A stretch of DNA of 64,000 nt from Bacteroidia bacterium (GTDB lineage: Bacteria > Bacteroidota > Bacteroidia > B-17B0 > Aurantibacillaceae), in the NCBI GenBank assembly GCA_016787445.1, contig JAEUTQ010000083.1:1-64000 (forward strand). Reading direction: 5' to 3'. Below the pieces are notes generated by a model, which was given only the letters and a program-made list of their open reading frames with translations, had not been told where the DNA came from and made no database searches. This document shows, in pieces, positions 5,113 to 16,034 of the stretch. Position 1 is the stretch's first letter. Every line of letters starts with the position of its first letter. The translations under genes and the position numbers were made by a program.

Positions 5113-6261
5113 TTATTTAGCACCTAGCATAGCTAAAGTAGCCTGGGTTTGCAGATTGGTAATGAAACAAGTGAGATCTTTTACATGGGGCTGAGCTTGC
5201 AATGCAGCATCAATTTCAGCGGCACGACCGGATACAGGCTCATTCATTTGTTCGTAGGTGTAGATTTTACTGTTTAATTTCGATTCAAAATCCACTACAG
5301 CCTCAATGAAATTTGCTTTTTCTGGAAAGGCATTAAATTGAACCGGTGTTAGAACAGTAGGAGTGATTTGCTCATCATTTTTAAGATAAGTTTGAAAATC
5401 AACACCTGCAATTCCGTTAATAATGGCATCCTTTAATTTATCGGCACTTTGCATAAATGCATGATAAGATTCCATATTCGCCTGATTGAGAGAATCAGGT
5501 TTAACTAGCATTTTCATGGTGTTTAAAGTCTGATTTTCGTTACGCATGTAATTAACGGTTGCTTTGCTCAGCGTTAAACTTGGCGACGCTTTCGGAAGCA
5601 CCATGGATAAAGCGGTACCCGCTAAAATCAGTACAGAAGTAACAATGGTGTTAACTTTCGTCTCAGGGTTTTTAATGCCGCTGATGAAGTAAAGCGGAAG
5701 AAACACCAATAGAACAATACTTAAAGTAACCGATAAGAGAATGCTGGCATAAGGCCAATGCATAATTTTGAAGAGAGAGGTGATGCCAACCATAGTAGCG
5801 GCAATGGAACCGGTAGCTAAAATGAGTTTATCTTTTGTGTTTTGTTTTTCCTTTATTTTTAAAGTGAACATAAAAGGAAGGAAAACCAAACTCATCGAAG
5901 CAATACCGAGCAACATTAATATGTTTGCTCCGGGCCAATGCATTACTTTAAATGAGGCGCCGAGAAGTGTAGCAAATGCGCCAAACAAGCCGCTGAAGAT
6001 CATTATTTTTTTCATTGTGTAATAGTGTTTAAAGATTAATAAATTGATGGTTTCTTCTTCTATCTCCCAGAGTTCGCTCTTGCAAAATTTGGGAATGGTT
6101 TGTTTATAGAAGTCCTCAAAGTCTCCATCATGACTGAGGTTTTGTTCAATAATGCAACAAACATGATCCAGGAGGTTTAACTGCAGGTCCTCCATCTCAA
6201 TGCCACGACGTCTTATGTCATCGAGAATAAAATCAATTTGTTTATCACTGATTTGGTACAT
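5113..6261 (-). CDS. Multi-pass membrane protein of the PadR operon
   Basis: A 382-residue protein. Residues 1-90 form a cytoplasmic module (starts ISDKQIDFILDDIRRRGIEM, ends ELWEIEEETINLL) that recurs at the start of the protein at 6865-7725. It is followed by about six membrane helices with two repeated KVMHWPGA / KIMHWPYA motifs, reminiscent of the hairpins in GldL, and a soluble C-terminal part of about 150 residues. No enzymatic motif is visible. It is the last gene of the PadR operon. Firmicutes often pair PadR with DUF1700 membrane proteins, and this may be an analogous signalling pair; function unknown. Confidence 0.8.
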   Translation of the reverse strand: MYQISDKQIDFILDDIRRRGIEMEDLQLNLLDHVCCIIEQNLSHDGDFEDFYKQTIPKFCKSELWEIEEETINLLIFKHYYTMKKIMIFSGLFGAFATLLGASFKVMHWPGANILMLLGIASMSLVFLPFMFTLKIKEKQNTKDKLILATGSIAATMVGITSLFKIMHWPYASILLSVTLSIVLLVFLPLYFISGIKNPETKVNTIVTSVLILAGTALSMVLPKASPSLTLSKATVNYMRNENQTLNTMKMLVKPDSLNQANMESYHAFMQSADKLKDAIINGIAGVDFQTYLKNDEQITPTVLTPVQFNAFPEKANFIEAVVDFESKLNSKIYTYEQMNEPVSGRAAEIDAALQAQPHVKDLTCFITNLQTQATLAMLGAK

Positions 6262-6268
6262 TAAGCGT

Positions 6269-6868
6269 TTATAATTGGTTTAAAACGGTCTTTAATCTAA
6301 ATTTAAAACGCTTGTCTGCCAGCGAATCTTCGGGGAATTTAGGCCCGGATAATGCTTTTAAGGAGTCGACATATATTAAATTCGCATACCTGTCAATTAT
6401 TACATTTAATGGGAATTTATAAGCGCGCAAAAGTTCTCGTTTGTAGTTTTTCTCTTTGTAAATTGAAAAAACAAAATCCTGACAGTTATACATGTATTTA
6501 AAATTCTTTGTTTTAATGCCTTCCTTATTTAAACAGCGCTTCGAGTAGCCCTCAGGCATTAAAGTGATAAATACATATCCAAAATTGTCTTTAACTGGTT
6601 CAACAATTGAATCTAGCATTGGCATTTGTTGGATACACGATAAGCAACCTGTATCCCAGATATTTATATAGAAGTATTTTTTGTCTTTAAGTTCAGGGTT
6701 TAATTTAATAAGCGAGTCCATAAACGCGGAACGGGCAACATTAATATTTATATCTTTCGGCTCAGTTTCACGAACTCTATATACGGCTTTATAAAAAACC
6801 TGGATCCCAATTAAAACAAGGTTTAATATCAAAGAGAAAAATAATATGATTTTTAATGACCTTTTCAT
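6269..6868 (-). CDS. Membrane-anchored thioredoxin-fold protein
   Basis: A 199-residue protein with an N-terminal membrane anchor (IILFFSLILNLVLIGIQVFY) followed by a thioredoxin/TlpA-like domain. The candidate redox motif is CLSC, in NIWDTGCLSCIQQMP, with a further Cys further on (SKRC). The start overlaps the stop of the gene upstream by 4 bp (ATGA type), showing coupling. Probably extracytoplasmic and involved in thiol redox or signalling within the PadR operon; the substrate is unknown. Confidence 0.78.
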   Translation of the reverse strand: MKRSLKIILFFSLILNLVLIGIQVFYKAVYRVRETEPKDININVARSAFMDSLIKLNPELKDKKYFYINIWDTGCLSCIQQMPMLDSIVEPVKDNFGYVFITLMPEGYSKRCLNKEGIKTKNFKYMYNCQDFVFSIYKEKNYKRELLRAYKFPLNVIIDRYANLIYVDSLKALSGPKFPEDSLADKRFKFRLKTVLNQL

Positions 6869-7725
6869 TTAATTTCATTTAAAATATTAATTAATTTTTT
6901 ATCGATGAAGGACATTGAAACAGAAGATTCATATAGTATCTTTCCGGATTTATTTATTAAAAAGGTTGTTGGAAATGAAATGCCAGTACGTTTTTTAAAA
7001 TTCCCATAGCCAACTAACAATTTCGGAACATCTTTTACATAAATTAGGTTGTGTGTTAAAGCTTCATTTTTAAGAATTTCTTTATCGACACTTTCATCAG
7101 AATACCGATATGCATACACAAAATTAATGCTACGATAAATTGCGGCTAGGGAATCATGCCTTTTCAAACTAATCGTTTCCGTCTTGATTTGCATATTATA
7201 AATTAGCGAATCCTCCATATTCATCTCGCCGTAATTAATATATGGGTATAAGTCGAAATTGAAGGTGATATAGGTATATTCTTTACTAATAATTTCTGGG
7301 TACTGCTGCTTCATTTTTAACTTAAAATCTTCTAAACCTTCTTCAAACGAAACTTTTTCAATTCGCTTCCATTCATTCTGGTATTTCTTTGTTTGGTAGA
7401 ATTCATAACCCAATCTAGCTAGTACAATAGCGTTGTAGCTTAAGGAAAGAACAAGTAATATGTATAAAAAGCGTTTCATTTTATAATAGTTTTTAAAATA
7501 TAAAAGGCCTACTGTTTCTTCTTCTATTTCCCAGAGTTCTGATTTAAAAAATTGTTTTATGGTTTTGTTGTATTTTGCGTTAAAATCATCTGTTTCTTTA
7601 AGCTCTCTCTCCAGTATACAGCAAATATGATCCAGGAGGTTAAGTTGCAGGTCCTCCATCTCGATGCCACGTTTTTTAATGTCATCAAGTATAAATTCTA
7701 TTTGCTCGTCAGAGACTCGGTACAT
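6865..7725 (-). CDS. Signalling-module protein with C-terminal thioredoxin-like domain
   Basis: A 286-residue protein. Residues 1-90 repeat the module of the 5113-6261 protein (VSDEQIEFILDDIKKRGIEM to ELWEIEEETVGLL). A single membrane helix follows (about 95-115), then an extracytoplasmic domain resembling a thioredoxin fold near its end (FPTTFLINKSGKILYES). No CxxC is visible, so it may be a non-catalytic redox-fold sensor. Its start shares base 7725 with the padR stop, so it is coupled to the regulator. Confidence 0.75.
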   Translation of the reverse strand: MYRVSDEQIEFILDDIKKRGIEMEDLQLNLLDHICCILERELKETDDFNAKYNKTIKQFFKSELWEIEEETVGLLYFKNYYKMKRFLYILLVLSLSYNAIVLARLGYEFYQTKKYQNEWKRIEKVSFEEGLEDFKLKMKQQYPEIISKEYTYITFNFDLYPYINYGEMNMEDSLIYNMQIKTETISLKRHDSLAAIYRSINFVYAYRYSDESVDKEILKNEALTHNLIYVKDVPKLLVGYGNFKKRTGISFPTTFLINKSGKILYESSVSMSFIDKKLINILNEIK

Positions 7726-8063: not shown

Positions 8064-8092
8064 GTTTTTCCTTTTATAATGTTTTACTTAAG

Positions 8093-8134
8093 ACAAAGAT
8101 ACATCTAAATCCAATACATAAGAAACCAATGTAT
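8093..8134 (-). promoter_or_regulatory. padR promoter with overlapping ATACAT operator array
   Basis: Three hexamers with constant 15-bp pitch: ATACAT at 8099, ATACAT at 8114 and ATGTAT at 8129, the last two forming an inverted repeat with a 9-bp spacer. On the minus strand the segment also holds a -7 element TATCTTTG (8101-8094) and a TTTC -33 element 20 bp upstream of it (8125-8122). A protein bound to the hexamers would cover the promoter, as expected for PadR autorepression. The 42 bp are identical to 8949-8990. Confidence 0.7.
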
Positions 8135-8215
8135 GTGAATATAGTGTAATGCAGTGATTCATAGGGTATAAAAATTTTTTGAAGATCAAGTTTCTAATAT
8201 TATGAAATGAAAAAT

Positions 8216-8926
8216 CTAATCGGAAAGATTATTTTCCAGTTCCTTTTTTACCTGTAAATAGAAGTCTTTTTGTTCCAGAGGGTTTATATTACCGCCGCTC
8301 CAAATTGCGCTTACTTTATTATGACTATCTAGTATGATACAGGTTGGATAACCGCCAATAACACAAAAGTCATTCATAGCTTTGTTTTTTGAAATGTTGG
8401 TTTGATAGGAATTGTACTTGTGTTCTTTGAGAAATTCCTTTAGGGTCAACATGTCATCAGTGTTTATAGCTAAGAAATAGGCTTTCCCTTCAAATTCTTT
8501 CTGTAATGAATTTATGGTTTCGATTTCTGCAATGCAGGGTCGACAAGAGGTAAACCAAAAATGTATAAAAACAGGCTTGTTCTTGAATTTAGAAATTGAG
8601 ATTGTTTTATCATTTACTGAGCGAAGTGGGGTGTTTGGGAATTGACATCCAATAAGATTTTTGATTATATTTTTGTTTACACTTAGGGGTGAAAACAAGC
8701 TATCTTCTACATTCTTTTTTATTTGATCCATTGAGCGAAACATTGTGTCTTGCCCGATTTTTAATCTTTTCAGACAGTCAGAAAAGCAATCCTGAGAGTT
8801 TATTTTAAAGGAAAACAAAAGAAATAACATTAAAATAAATTTATATCCACAAATATTTTTAGGCCGTTTTAATGCTTTTAAATTAATTCGTTTAAAAGTC
8901 ATTATTATAAATCTAGATGAATGCAT
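8216..8926 (-). CDS. TlpA-like thiol-disulfide oxidoreductase
   Basis: A 236-residue protein with a hydrophobic signal or anchor near residues 25-45 (FKINSQDC could be a cleavage or lipidation region) and a TlpA/ResA-type thioredoxin domain with the active site FTSCRPC, a YPTCIILD cis-proline segment and a C-terminal helix. Predicted to act outside the cytoplasm in thiol reduction or redox signalling. It is a single gene with the same 42-bp promoter-operator as the padR operon, so it is probably in the same regulon. Start may be 8926 or the Met at 8902. Confidence 0.85.
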   Translation of the reverse strand: MHSSRFIIMTFKRINLKALKRPKNICGYKFILMLFLLFSFKINSQDCFSDCLKRLKIGQDTMFRSMDQIKKNVEDSLFSPLSVNKNIIKNLIGCQFPNTPLRSVNDKTISISKFKNKPVFIHFWFTSCRPCIAEIETINSLQKEFEGKAYFLAINTDDMLTLKEFLKEHKYNSYQTNISKNKAMNDFCVIGGYPTCIILDSHNKVSAIWSGGNINPLEQKDFYLQVKKELENNLSD

Positions 8927-8948
8927 TTTAGGAAATGGATGAAATAAA

Positions 8949-8990
8949 ACAAAGATACATCTAAATCCAATACATAAGAAACCAATGTAT
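8949..8990 (-). promoter_or_regulatory. Second copy of the PadR-type promoter-operator
   Basis: Identical over 42 bp to 8093-8134: ATACAT at 8955 and 8970, ATGTAT at 8985, and a -7 element TATCTTTG on the minus strand (8957-8950). It lies 23 bp before the TlpA-like gene. The sequence beyond the core (to about 9034) is recognisably similar to that beyond the first copy but has diverged, so the core looks conserved by selection. Confidence 0.7.
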
Positions 8991-9054
8991 ATGAATATTA
9001 TGTAATTTGCTGATTTAGAGGGAGTAAAATTTTAAAAGTGGAATCACCCCCTCC

Positions 9055-9166
9055 CGCTTCGCGGAAGCGCACCCCCCTCTCCCTTGGGAGAGGGCTGGGG
9101 TGAGGGTCTGCTTTAGTCACTACTAAAACCCCTCTGTCCTGCGGACATCTCCCCTTATCAGGGGAG
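9055..9166. repeat. Cluster of palindromic intergenic repeats
   Basis: Four short inverted repeats in a gene-free stretch: CGCTTC/GAAGCG at 9055-9069, CCCTCTCCC/GGGAGAGGG at 9075-9094, TGTCC/GGACA at 9135-9147 and CTCCCCT/AGGGGAG at 9149-9166. GC content is much higher than in flanking DNA. They look like dispersed hairpin repeats of the type common between genes in Bacteroidota; one may serve as a terminator. Nothing else was seen between 9001 and 9233. Confidence 0.6.
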
Positions 9167-9813: not shown

Positions 9814-10989
9814 TTATTGTGTTTTTGAAAGCTCAAGGTAAGGCACCTTCTCTTGTTTTTCTACATTATCCTTGTTTTTGTATTTAACTAGCGCCTTATG
9901 TTCTAAATCATCAAGTGAAATAACTTCACATTGAATTATTTCTGTTTTTTTAAGCATTCCACCTTTTGACCAATTAACCTTTTCTCCAATGGTAAATTTG
10001 TATTTTTGAATCTCTTTTGAAAAATTCTCTTTTTCAGAAAGGTACTTGTCTTTTGAAATTTTTTCTATTTCTAAATAGCCAACATCTGTTGTTTTTTCTT
10101 CCCCATATATATTTAAATATTTAATTGAGGCTTTGTGATTCGAATTATTTAATCCTACAACCTCTCCAACTTTTAAACTTTTCGACTCAATCCAACTAAC
10201 TTGTTCACCTACTAGAAATTTATACTTTTCAATTTCTATATTAAATGAAGTGACAAATTCGTTATACTTATTAATGTCTGCCTTTTCTAATTTCAAATAA
10301 TCGAAATTATCTGTTTTAACATCACCGTATATATCAAGAAATTTAACTTTAGCATCATGCTTTTCGTTATTTAACGAGACAACCTCGCCATATTTCAATT
10401 TTGAACCTTCAGTCCAACTTACCTTTTCTCCAATAGCAAACTGATGTTTTTTAATCTCTTCCAGTTGTTGTTCTTTATATTTATTAAAAGTTTCATTGTT
10501 AACTGGAGTTAGTTTTTCATAACTAATATTATCAAGTTTGTCTTCGCCGTATTCATTTAAATACTTAACGCTAGCTTTTTGTTTAGTGTTGTCTAATTGA
10601 AAAATCTCAGCATATCTTGGTTTCCCCCCTTCTTTATAACTTACCTTATCTCCACCCTTAAAGCCACCTCCTGTAATTTCTCTGCCAATGAATTTTATTA
10701 GTTGAGCTTTTTTATGATTTCCATCCTCGAAAATTATCCCATCAACATTATTGTATTTTTTTCTTACTCTTGTTAGCGCTTCTTTGTATGATTTATCAGG
10801 ATCATCCGGATTCCAATAAACGTCCCAAATGTCAATTACATCGTATGGGTTAACAGGAGTTGCTCCAACAAAAATAAAGACACCATCAACTTGTTTGCCA
10901 ACTTTGGCAAGAGAATAATCTTTTTCAGTTTGAGCAGCAAGACCACCCATCAAAGCAACTAGTGTTAAAAAGTAGGTTATTCTTTTCAT
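9814..10989 (-). CDS. Secreted protein with four SH3-like (KOW/Agenet-type) repeats
   Basis: A 391-residue protein with a signal peptide (MKRITYFLTLVALMGGLAAQ) and four tandem repeats of about 50 residues joined by charged helical linkers. Each repeat begins with a pattern such as IGEKVSWTEG, continues GEVVSLNN..H.A.VKFL, and ends YLKLEK, starting near residues 112, 184, 257 and 332. The pattern suggests small SH3-like barrels. No catalytic motif. Function unknown; it lies 4 bp upstream of nadD on the same strand, probably by chance. Confidence 0.78.
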   Translation of the reverse strand: MKRITYFLTLVALMGGLAAQTEKDYSLAKVGKQVDGVFIFVGATPVNPYDVIDIWDVYWNPDDPDKSYKEALTRVRKKYNNVDGIIFEDGNHKKAQLIKFIGREITGGGFKGGDKVSYKEGGKPRYAEIFQLDNTKQKASVKYLNEYGEDKLDNISYEKLTPVNNETFNKYKEQQLEEIKKHQFAIGEKVSWTEGSKLKYGEVVSLNNEKHDAKVKFLDIYGDVKTDNFDYLKLEKADINKYNEFVTSFNIEIEKYKFLVGEQVSWIESKSLKVGEVVGLNNSNHKASIKYLNIYGEEKTTDVGYLEIEKISKDKYLSEKENFSKEIQKYKFTIGEKVNWSKGGMLKKTEIIQCEVISLDDLEHKALVKYKNKDNVEKQEKVPYLELSKTQ

Positions 10990-11787: not shown

Positions 11788-13023
11788 TTACTTTTTTAAT
11801 AAGAGTTGTTCTACTAAATGTTCTGTTTTCTCTGTGTATTGTACGTAAGCTTTTCCTGTAGCCGGACCGCTGAATCCGGTGTAAATACTTTTTACTTCAT
11901 GATTGCGGTCGAGTATAATGGTAGTTGGAAACGCGCTGATGTTGTTGAAGAAAGGCAAGCTCTCGGCGGCTTTTGCTTTTCCTGTTAAACCTGTAATCAA
12001 CACATCATAATCAACCATAAAGCGTTTTTTCAGACGTAAAACATTTTTCTTGGCTTTTTCAAAATCGTCGGTGCGTTCATAGGCTAAAGCAATAATTTCC
12101 AAACCGGAGTTTTGATATTTATGGTACACTTTCGATAAATACGCGGTCTCATCCATACAATTCGGACACCAGCTGCCCATCAACTGAATGATGACAACTT
12201 TGTTTTTATATTTCTCATCACTCAAACTTACTTTTTTGCCTTCTGTATCCGGAAAGGTGAAATAGATTTTTTCTCCCGGTGTTTTTAAAACAGTAATCGA
12301 CTCCGGATCTTTTAATTTGAATTGCTCATTGCGTTTCGCCACAAAATTTTCGGTACCGCTATTGCTGTAAAATACTTTTCCTTCCAAATCATTTACTTTT
12401 CCTGTTTTGTTGTTGGCCGTCATGAAAAACAAAAAAGCATGAGAACCATCAAAACAAGAGAGCGACATGTTTGAATTTTGCACCGCTCCTTCTAAATAGC
12501 GATAGTCGCCGGTTTCAGTTAAGAAAGTGCCGGTTACTTTACTTCCGTTTTGTTTAAAGATACCAACGGCTTTATATGCATCAGAAGTGCCTGCATTAAA
12601 TGTGACTTCATAGCGACCGGTAAAATCTACTTTTGGTTTAGCGCTTGTTATAAAGCGTGTAGCGTTGTTGAATACAGCTTCAAACGGAAGTACGTTCTTT
12701 GTTTTTTTAGTGTGATTAATCCAAATTCCATTTAAAGAATCACCTCGTAATGCCGTGCGGAATTCAGTATCAAACACCGGCATGTAAAAGTTAACAGAGT
12801 CACCAAACACGGAAACTTCATCTACCACAATTTTCTCGTCGGCATTGAGTACTTCAATAACAGGAGCATTGTTAACGTATTTTACGTTAAAGTTGAAAGG
12901 AAGAATGATTTCGTTTTTTGTTTCACTTAATGTAAGTACACCGCGCCAGGTACCGCTTTTAAAATTTTGTGGAAAAGCAATCGCAGTGCAGAAACAAAAA
13001 AGTATAATCAGTTTTTTCTTCAT
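11788..13023 (-). CDS. Secreted TlpA-like redoxin with N-terminal beta domain
   Basis: A 411-residue protein with a signal peptide (ending near IAFPQ), a beta-rich N-terminal half of about 250 residues, and a C-terminal AhpC/TlpA thioredoxin domain with active site GSWCPNCMDE and the segment FPTTIILDRNHEV. Proteins of this layout are common in Bacteroidota and are thought to reduce disulfides in the envelope. Its start touches the leuS stop (shared base 13023) and its end is 1 bp from ribE, so leuS, this gene and ribE form a close-packed run. Confidence 0.88.
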   Translation of the reverse strand: MKKKLIILFCFCTAIAFPQNFKSGTWRGVLTLSETKNEIILPFNFNVKYVNNAPVIEVLNADEKIVVDEVSVFGDSVNFYMPVFDTEFRTALRGDSLNGIWINHTKKTKNVLPFEAVFNNATRFITSAKPKVDFTGRYEVTFNAGTSDAYKAVGIFKQNGSKVTGTFLTETGDYRYLEGAVQNSNMSLSCFDGSHAFLFFMTANNKTGKVNDLEGKVFYSNSGTENFVAKRNEQFKLKDPESITVLKTPGEKIYFTFPDTEGKKVSLSDEKYKNKVVIIQLMGSWCPNCMDETAYLSKVYHKYQNSGLEIIALAYERTDDFEKAKKNVLRLKKRFMVDYDVLITGLTGKAKAAESLPFFNNISAFPTTIILDRNHEVKSIYTGFSGPATGKAYVQYTEKTEHLVEQLLLKK

Positions 13024-15950
13024 TACATCACAATGTTTACAATCTTCTTCGGAACAATAATCACTTTCTTCGGTTGTTTACCCTCTAAGTATTTGTGTGT
13101 TTGTTCGGCTTCCATCACCAGCTTCTCAATTTCCTGTACACTTAAATTAGCCGCTAATTCCAAATTGAAACGCATTTTACCATTGAAGGAAATCGGATAA
13201 TTAAAATTATCTTCTACTAAATGCGCCTCGTTAAATTCTGGGAAGGCCGCAAAAGCAATGCTTCCTTTGTGGCCGAGTTTTTCCCACAACTCTTCAGCAA
13301 CGTGTGGCGCGTAAGGAGATATTAAAACCAACAATGGCTCTAGTATCGCGCGCTTGTTGCATTTTAAATCGCTTAATTCATTCACACAGATCATGAAATT
13401 ACTAACTGAAGTATTAAACGAAAAGCGTTCAATGTCTTCCGTAATTTTCTTGATGGTTTTGTGTAATGTTTTTAATTCCGGTTTTGTCGGCGCATCTTCA
13501 CTCACCACAAAACTTCCTGTTTGGTAGAACAAGCGCCACAATTTTTTTAAGAATCCTGATACGCCGGTAATGCCATTCGTGTTCCAAGGCTTGCTTTGCT
13601 CCAATGGACCTAAAAACATTTCGTATAAACGTAAAGTATCCGCACCAAATTTTTCGCAAATGTCATCTGGAGTTTGAACATTATGCTTCGATTTAGACAT
13701 TTTCTCAACTTCAGGAGTTGTTTTAAAAATATTGCTACCGTTGTTATTAAAGCTTATGAACTCGTTATTTAGCCAATAACCTCCTTCACAAATGAAAGCA
13801 GCAGCACTATCTTCATTCCACCATTCTAAATGCTTTTTTATGTCTAGAACAGAGTTGCTAACATTATTTACATTAGCATACTTATCAGTTGAATAATCAA
13901 ATTTTGAGCTTTTGTCTATAATGTCAGAGCTAATGAATACATTTTTAATTGCAAGAGGTATATTGTGTTCTTCCAAAACACTGCCTTTATAAATATAAAT
14001 TAATCGCTTATTGTTATCGTCAGGATTTTTTTCTACCGAAATTAATCTATTGATTTTTTCGCTCATCCCCTGTATCATCCCTTGATTAATCAATTTCTTC
14101 GCAGGTTCATCCACAGCAATAAATCCTCTGTCAAATAAAAATTTAGTCCAGAAGCGCACGTACAATAAATGTCCGGTAGCATGTTCACTGCCGCCAATGT
14201 ATAAATCTACATTTTGCCAGTAGTCGGTTAATTTTTTATCGGCAAATGCTTTATCATTCTTCGCGTCCATATAACGCAAGAAATACCAGGAGCTTCCTGC
14301 CCATCCCGGCATGGTGGTCCATTCGTAATCGTACTGTCCTTTGTATTTCCAGTCTTTCGCGCGAGCCAAAGGCGGCTCACCGTCTTCCGTCGGTAAAAAC
14401 TTATCGACTTCCGGTAACACCAATGGCAATTCATTCTCAGGCATCACATGCGGAATGCCGTCTTTATAATAAACAGGAATCGGTTCTCCCCAATAACGCT
14501 GACGGCCAAACACGGCATCGCGTAAACGGTAATTGGTTTTACCTTTTCCTAAATTTCTTTTTTCAATTTCTTCAATGGCTTTTTTAATGGCTGCTTTTAC
14601 TTCGAGTCCGTTTAAGAAATCGGAGTTAATGCATTTGCCTTCTTTGGCGTCGTAAGATTGTTCCTGCACATCCGGTCCTTCCACTACCTGTAAAATTGGT
14701 AAGCCAAAATGTTTAGCGAAGCGGTGATCGCGCTCATCATGTCCCGGCACTGCCATTACCGCACCTGTTCCGTAACCTGCTAACACATAATCGCCCACCC
14801 AAATCTGTACTTTTTTTCCTGTGAACGGATGAATGACATAAGCTCCGGTAAATACGCCGCTTACTTTGGTTACGTCCGCCTGGCGTTCGCGCTCACTTCT
14901 GTTCTTGGCTTTGGTAACGTAGTCCAGCACTGCGGCTTTTTGTTCCGCTGTTGTAATTGTATCGACATATTCATGCTCCGGTGCTATGGTGATAAAACTC
15001 ACGCCGAAAATGGTATCCGGACGGGTGGTGAACACTTCCAGGTGTAAGTCAGAATTTTCAATTTGAAATTTCAAACTTGTTCCTTCGCTTCTGCCAATCC
15101 AATAACGTTGAGATTCTTTTAAACTTTCTGTCCAGTCGATAGTATCTAATCCATCTAACAAACGCTGAGCATAAGCAGTAATGCGCATGCTCCATTGTTT
15201 CATTAATTTTCTTTCTACCGGATGTCCGCCGCGCTCACTCACACCATCTTTCACTTCATCATTCGCCAACACAGTTCCTAAAGCGGGACACCAATTCACA
15301 TACGCTTCACCTAAATAAGTAAGGCGGAAATTCATTAACACATCGCTGCGTTTTTTCTCGTCGAAGTTTTTCCATTGCTCCGGTGTGAAAGCTTCCAGTT
15401 CTTTTTCAATATCTCCGGTTAAAATATCATGTGTTAATCCTTTGAATCCTTCTGTTTCAAAAATCTTAATTAAGCTCTCGATTGGTTCTGCTTTATTGTT
15501 GCGTGGATTGTACCAACTGTTGAAGAGTTGAATAAAAATCCATTGTGTCCATTTGTAATACGAAGGATCTGAGGTTCTCACTTCGCGATCCCAGTCAAAT
15601 GAAAAACCGATTTTATCTAATTGTTCACGATAACGTGCAATGTTCTGCTCTGTAGTTACCGCAGGATGTTGTCCGGTTTGAATGGCGTATTGCTCTGCAG
15701 GCAAACCAAAACTATCATAACCCATTGGATGCAGCACATTAAATCCTTTGTGGCGTTTATAGCGCGCCATGATATCGGAAGCAATATAGCCAAGGGGATG
15801 CCCTACATGTAAACCCGCTCCCGAAGGGTAAGGGAACATGTCGAGTACATAATATTTTGGTTTGGTAGAAGTATTATCTGCTTTAAATGGTTTGGTGTCT
15901 TTCCAAATCTTTTGCCATTTATTTTCTATGTCCTTAAAATTGTATTCCAT
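13023..15950 (-). CDS. leuS: Leucyl-tRNA synthetase
   Basis: Charges tRNA-Leu. Class I signatures are visible: the HIGH-type motif HVGHP near the N-terminus ([16 protein letters not shown]) and the KMSKS loop MSKSKHN. An editing (CP1) domain with TTRPDTIFG lies between them. The start at 15950 ([13 protein letters not shown]) matches the family; the longer frame to 16013 adds 21 unconserved residues. The region before KMSKS is expanded by roughly 100 residues rich in N/S/K, an insertion seen in some Bacteroidota LeuS. Confidence 0.97.
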
Positions 15951-16034
15951 GTAATCGTAAAAAGTGCTGTTTTTATAGAGTATACAAAGATAGCTTTTTA
16001 GAGGGAATGGCAAGGGGGGAATTTAATTACTTAC

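Follow-up and report, generated by a model that had tools for sequence, protein, structure and literature searches.

A PadR-linked promoter-operator conserved before padR in related Bacteroidia and carried by two promoters in one genome

The same 42 bp, ACAAAGATACATCTAAATCCAATACATAAGAAACCAATGTAT, stand before the padR operon and before a neighbouring TlpA-like gene in the window analyzed here (the whole stretch of 64,000 nucleotides). The initial annotation had pointed to this repeat, and both copies were found to be identical to the letter, spaced 856 bp apart and without a further exact occurrence in the 3.77-Mb genome. We consider it likely that the repeat is an ordinary PadR autoregulatory operator, in an arrayed form specific to its clade, which was captured together with the 5' end of padR by a thioredoxin-like gene. 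The putative operator is of a known kind and is conserved in the Bacteroidia relatives examined.

The padR product carries a PadR winged-helix domain at residues 15-87 (PF03551, E=4.2e-17), and a PDB search with it matched 37 sequences, most of them named PadR-type. The gene behind the second operator copy, here called tlpA, encodes both a thioredoxin/AhpC-TSA domain (PF00578, PF08534) and a CxxC motif (CRPC), as expected for the TlpA/ResA type. Three further genes follow padR (Table 1). The second gene of the padR operon gives a weak C-terminal match to ResA-like proteins. A derivation of tlpA from the TlpA-like third gene was considered and rejected, the match between them being limited to 22 residues around the CxxC. 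The GldL-like membrane protein is the usual neighbour of padR, following it in nearly all loci examined, and has three predicted N-terminal helices ahead of its membrane part. When this protein was modelled, the structure had no informative counterpart in the PDB; GldL of 7sax appeared only at E 1.3. Compared with the nearest relative, G052, the two genes directly behind padR (6269-7725 vs. L075 7100-8589) are 53% and 35% identical at the protein level within DNA that is about 96% identical, the first of them having retained just its N-terminal domain. Such a pattern suggests that sensor-type domains are replaced rapidly.

Table 1. Features of the padR and tlpA promoters and their genes, by position in the window.
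Feature	Position	Strand	Basis or remark
GldL-like membrane protein, conserved N-terminal domain	5113..6261	-	GldL_N match
Third padR-operon gene	6269..6868	-	Weak TlpA/ResA-like match, CLSC motif
Second padR-operon gene	6865..7725	-	N-terminal domain same as that of the GldL-like protein, plus poorly conserved domain
padR, 112 aa	7725..8063	-	Pfam PF03551 E=4e-17; PDB PadR relatives
padR half-site array	8084..8149	-	15-bp pitch, 5 half-sites in phase
Operator core copy 1, padR promoter	8093..8134	-	42 bp identical to copy 2
-7 box TATCTTTG, padR promoter	8094..8101	-	Sequence; predicted +1 at 8089
Central palindrome copy 1, ATACATTGGTTTCTTATGTAT	8114..8134	-	Clade consensus ATACATAAGAtTCTTATGTAT, from 85 loci
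Segment absent from G052, 856 bp	8135..8990	.	End points anywhere within 42 bp
tlpA, TlpA/ResA-like thioredoxin gene, CRPC motif, 236-aa reading frame	8216..8926	-	PF00578, PF08534; ResA-like
Relic of first 30 padR codons, start of tlpA reading frame	8837..8926	-	13/30 aa, 55/90 nt identical
Operator core copy 2, tlpA promoter	8949..8990	-	Identical to copy 1
-7 box TATCTTTG, tlpA promoter	8950..8957	-	Sequence, same rule; predicted +1 at 8945
tlpA half-site array	8955..9005	-	15-bp pitch, 4 half-sites in phase
Central palindrome copy 2	8970..8990	-	85-locus consensus; genome search at <=3 mismatches

Around the identical core, both copies have diverged flanks (100 nt at 82% in a repeat search). 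On the upstream side the similarity runs to 8188/9046, with an alignment score of 44, where 1000 shuffles reached at most 36, and on the gene side it enters the padR coding sequence, to about 7974/8838. The flanking duplication had been placed to about 8178 and 9034; it is real, but it is longer than proposed and includes the first 30 padR codons. Residues 1-30 of the tlpA product, MHSSRFIIMTFKRINLKALKRPKNICGYKF, align in frame and without gaps to residues 1-30 of PadR, MYSSELIKGTLKTIVLKLLAEHKKMYGYEI. The 13 identities compare with a mean of 3.1 and a maximum of 10 in 100,000 shuffles, and the 55 identical nucleotides with a maximum of 47, none of 100,000 shuffles reaching the observed value. 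Since this relic matches the 5' end of padR, the copied piece comprises the upstream flank, the operator, the leader and the first 30 padR codons. Behind this piece, a thioredoxin-like gene with its signal sequence was evidently joined.

The core had been described as three phased ATACAT hexamers. The triplet ATACAT-N9-ATACAT-N9-ATGTAT is present, beginning at 8099 in copy 1 and 8955 in copy 2, but the motif is larger: the padR promoter has five in-phase half-sites and the tlpA promoter four. On the gene strand the padR promoter reads TTACAC (8149-8144), ATACAT (8134-8129), ATGTAT (8119-8114), ATGTAT (8104-8099) and AAGTAA (8089-8084), with N9 between each pair, and the tlpA promoter reads TTACAT (9005-9000), ATACAT, ATGTAT and ATGTAT (8960-8955) at the same spacing. 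Both arrays are centred on the 21-bp palindrome. The fifth half-site has decayed to ATTTCA at tlpA (8945-8940), a loss that may result in weaker control of this gene.

Both promoters also share a perfect TAnnTTTG, TATCTTTG, into which the second ATGTAT of the array runs. This is the sigma-A box of flavobacteria, located at -12 to -5 (PMC9723704), and this position leads to the start points predicted in Table 1. Of the proposed overlap of the hexamers with -33 and -7 elements, the -7 part is thus well founded, while no clean TTG could be read at normal spacing at the -33 position of the padR promoter, where there is TTTC (8125-8122), with TTGG about 4 nt further upstream. Because a protein bound to the array would cover the promoter, repression by occlusion is the natural reading. 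PadR dimers would occupy the palindrome ATACAT-N9-ATGTAT and the neighbouring half-sites at 15-bp steps. They would thereby cover the promoter between about -60 and the start point, silencing padR together with the membrane-protein genes that follow it. Very likely, tlpA would now be under PadR control too.

In its own genome the operator is confined to these two promoters. A whole-genome search for ATACAT triplets at 15-bp pitch, as the initial annotation had suggested, returned only these sites at <=1 mismatch, as did searches of all 3.77 Mb with the 36-bp core (<=3 mismatches) and of the genome with the clade-consensus palindrome (<=3 mismatches, control 0). When 2-3 mismatches were allowed in the hexamer triplet, scattered matches appeared (11+8 in total, several of them these same operators), compared to 5+3 for the reversed pattern.

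Conservation was assessed at padR orthologues from 50 of the 87 genomes of the family and from 80 named contigs, which include Flavobacterium, Fluviicola and many metagenome genomes. ATACAT-N9-ATGTAT (<=1 mismatch) occurs upstream of padR in 75 of 82 distinct regions, as opposed to 9 of 1640 shuffled ones. The consensus of 85 anchored loci, ATACATAAGAtTCTTATGTAT aTTTGTcTT AtGTAT, is the 21-bp palindrome followed by a half-site 15 bp on. At least three half-sites stood in 15-bp phase in 77/85 loci, compared to 7-26/85 at shifted phases, and both the hexamers and the -7 box show strong conservation between species. One palindrome each (<=2 mismatches) was found in 33/87 family genomes, nearly always at the padR promoter, and the triplet pattern, too, is almost restricted to padR. 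In 16/85 loci (L131, L142, L157 and L159 among them) the -7 box predicts a transcript that begins with the A of the ATG, so that padR is seemingly leaderless, and the start and second codons, ATG TAT, are themselves the last in-phase half-site. Taken together, the pattern represents a strong comparative footprint of padR autoregulation. The link of this promoter-operator to PadR, claimed from the single genome, is therefore borne out before padR in the Bacteroidia loci examined, and within this genome it is limited to the two promoters.

Some loci show additional features. A TTGA-W-N1-2-TCA element, which may be the site of a second regulator, lies upstream of the operator in 18/85 loci (3.2 expected), in most cases some 30-45 bp ahead of the palindrome. 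In G047 (L084 6257-9728), two genes that by eye resemble those for choloylglycine-hydrolase/C45-type proteins are located between operator and padR, a further case of genes behind the operator and ahead of padR. G024, which carries two PadR paralogues, has a perfect ATACAT/ATACAT/ATGTAT triplet away from padR (L052 1501-1536), about 200 bp before an outer-membrane-receptor-like gene.

The canonical PadR box is an ATGT-N8-ACAT inverted repeat (PMC5428041, PMC3506622). It is not present in this operator, where the half-sites stand in the opposite order, ACAT-N9-ATGT. A closer parallel is cdPadR1 of C. difficile, a PadR-family protein that binds TACT-N11-12-AGTA in its own promoter (PMC5050560). 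Its inverted half-sites, with an AT-rich core, agree in pitch and order with TACA-N11-TGTA here, and cdPadR1 has two inverted-repeat sets and gives several gel-shift complexes (PMC5050560). The half-site letters differ (TACAT here, TACT there), by one letter per central half-site, although the outer half-site here reads AAGTAA/TTACTT. Our operator further differs in its continuous 15-bp array and in having two genome sites, compared to about 200 predicted in C. difficile. LmrR of Lactococcus lactis, also of the PadR family, represses its own gene and a neighbouring target, as proposed here, and places two dimers on one operator at lmrR and lmrCD; its half-site order is ATGT-N10-ACAT, however, its target is a drug transporter, and no such array is described (PMC5428041). 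The gene order, padR and then membrane proteins with an N-terminal helical domain, is that of HAAS-PadR dyads (PMC11237479) and of the Listeria LltR/LstR operons (PMC6624303), for which autorepression was shown (PMC6624303). We do not claim membership in the HAAS-PadR dyads: the protein encoded next to padR matched neither HAAS nor DUF1700 in Pfam even at E<=5, the GxP motif is absent from the N-terminal consensus of 38 sequences, and the membrane part is GldL-like.

The difference in half-site order from the textbook box could mean that the site is bound by some other regulator, or that it is a structural part of the promoter. We regard this as very improbable, as the motif accompanies padR orthologues across Bacteroidia and hardly occurs at other places in these genomes. 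A different question is why all 42 bp are identical. The initial annotation had read the unchanged core as the result of selection, and the hexamers are indeed under selection, as the between-species comparison shows; the -7 box is conserved there too. Selection alone is nevertheless an improbable cause of the full identity, since the two 9-bp spacers vary between congeners (7-11/18 identical to ours) and are identical at 18/18 positions between the two copies, for which the chance is 0.00014-0.026 at the local flank identity of 61-82%. That spacers free to vary should agree so fully points to exchange between the copies (gene conversion), or to the recombination that formed the locus, as the better explanation; this evidence is suggestive rather than conclusive, and copy exchange would not be needed if the whole core, spacers included, were constrained in this lineage. 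As a more general caution, an unchanged repeat core does not equal selection when copies can exchange sequence. Under the preferred reading, a PadR operator captured with the padR 5' end, the copies would either have exchanged sequence since or be the recombination joints themselves.

Two versions of this capture can be considered, and the comparison with relatives bears on both. G052 has an identical PadR and about 96% DNA identity around the locus; it lacks tlpA and has a single operator, with the left-hand flank of copy 1 on one side and the right-hand flank of copy 2 on the other. Three members of the same genus (G053, G054, G058) have the arrangement nadD-operator-padR, also with one operator. 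The difference may be due to an insertion in this genome or to a deletion in G052. The strong drift of the relic favours either an event that predates the G052 split, with the segment lost from G052 afterwards, or a foreign donor. According to the first version, which we judge about as probable as improbable, the upstream flank, operator and first padR codons were duplicated locally before the G052 split and captured tlpA, the operators stayed alike through selection and gene conversion, and the segment was later lost from G052 by recombination between the repeats. The two upstream flanks of this genome resemble each other (40/49) more closely than either resembles those of congeners (33-37 of 46-51), so the copies would seem to have arisen in this lineage or one near to it; the joint in G052 is exactly what a repeat-mediated deletion would leave, and the relic, at 55/90 nt, is too diverged for a local event younger than the split at about 4%. 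Against this, no genome in an intermediate state was found, and the three more distant congeners are single-operator as well. The second version, a possible but somewhat doubtful one, is that a cassette of operator, flank, tlpA and relic was recently inserted from a related species by homologous recombination at the operator, with the identical core being the joint. This would agree with the absence of the cassette from all four congeners, with the coincidence of the identical stretch and the end points, and with the presence of tlpA homologues (47-48%) in only two other family genomes, not beside any operator. However, these homologues were all that a donor search of the family's 87 genomes (the order level comprises the same 87) recovered, none of them a donor, and no foreign padR was clearly closer to the relic than the genome's own.

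In either version, the locus appears to have caught one step of regulon growth, in which promoter, operator and first codons of the regulator were copied onto an unrelated gene, and the single-operator state is preserved in a close relative. With its exact sequence defined, the operator of this PadR family becomes open to testing. The family is widespread in Bacteroidia and, in the open literature searched, undescribed, and a search for papers on the operator in Bacteroidetes returned none. A wider generalization, to which we attach clear doubt, is that the Bacteroidia PadR operator can be extended at a fixed 15-bp pitch, is filled by cooperative dimers and serves as a recombination joint for the capture of regulon genes. 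It would cover both the species in which the start codon, ATGTAT, is the last half-site and the captured genes that receive promoter and first codons.

Other features were seen beside the locus. Between the tlpA promoter and nadD there is a G+C-rich hairpin, CCCTCTCCCTTGGGAGAGGGCTGGGGTGAGG (9060-9115), with one copy only in the genome at <=1 mismatch. A 391-aa repeat-containing gene (9814-10989) separates nadD from the riboflavin synthase gene. G052 does not have it, the two genes being about 170 bp apart there, which makes it a second presence/absence difference beside the operator locus. Finally, the leucyl-tRNA synthetase gene (13023-16013) has stretches, including one after GMIQG, that are almost wholly unlike G052 inside otherwise about 95% identical sequence.
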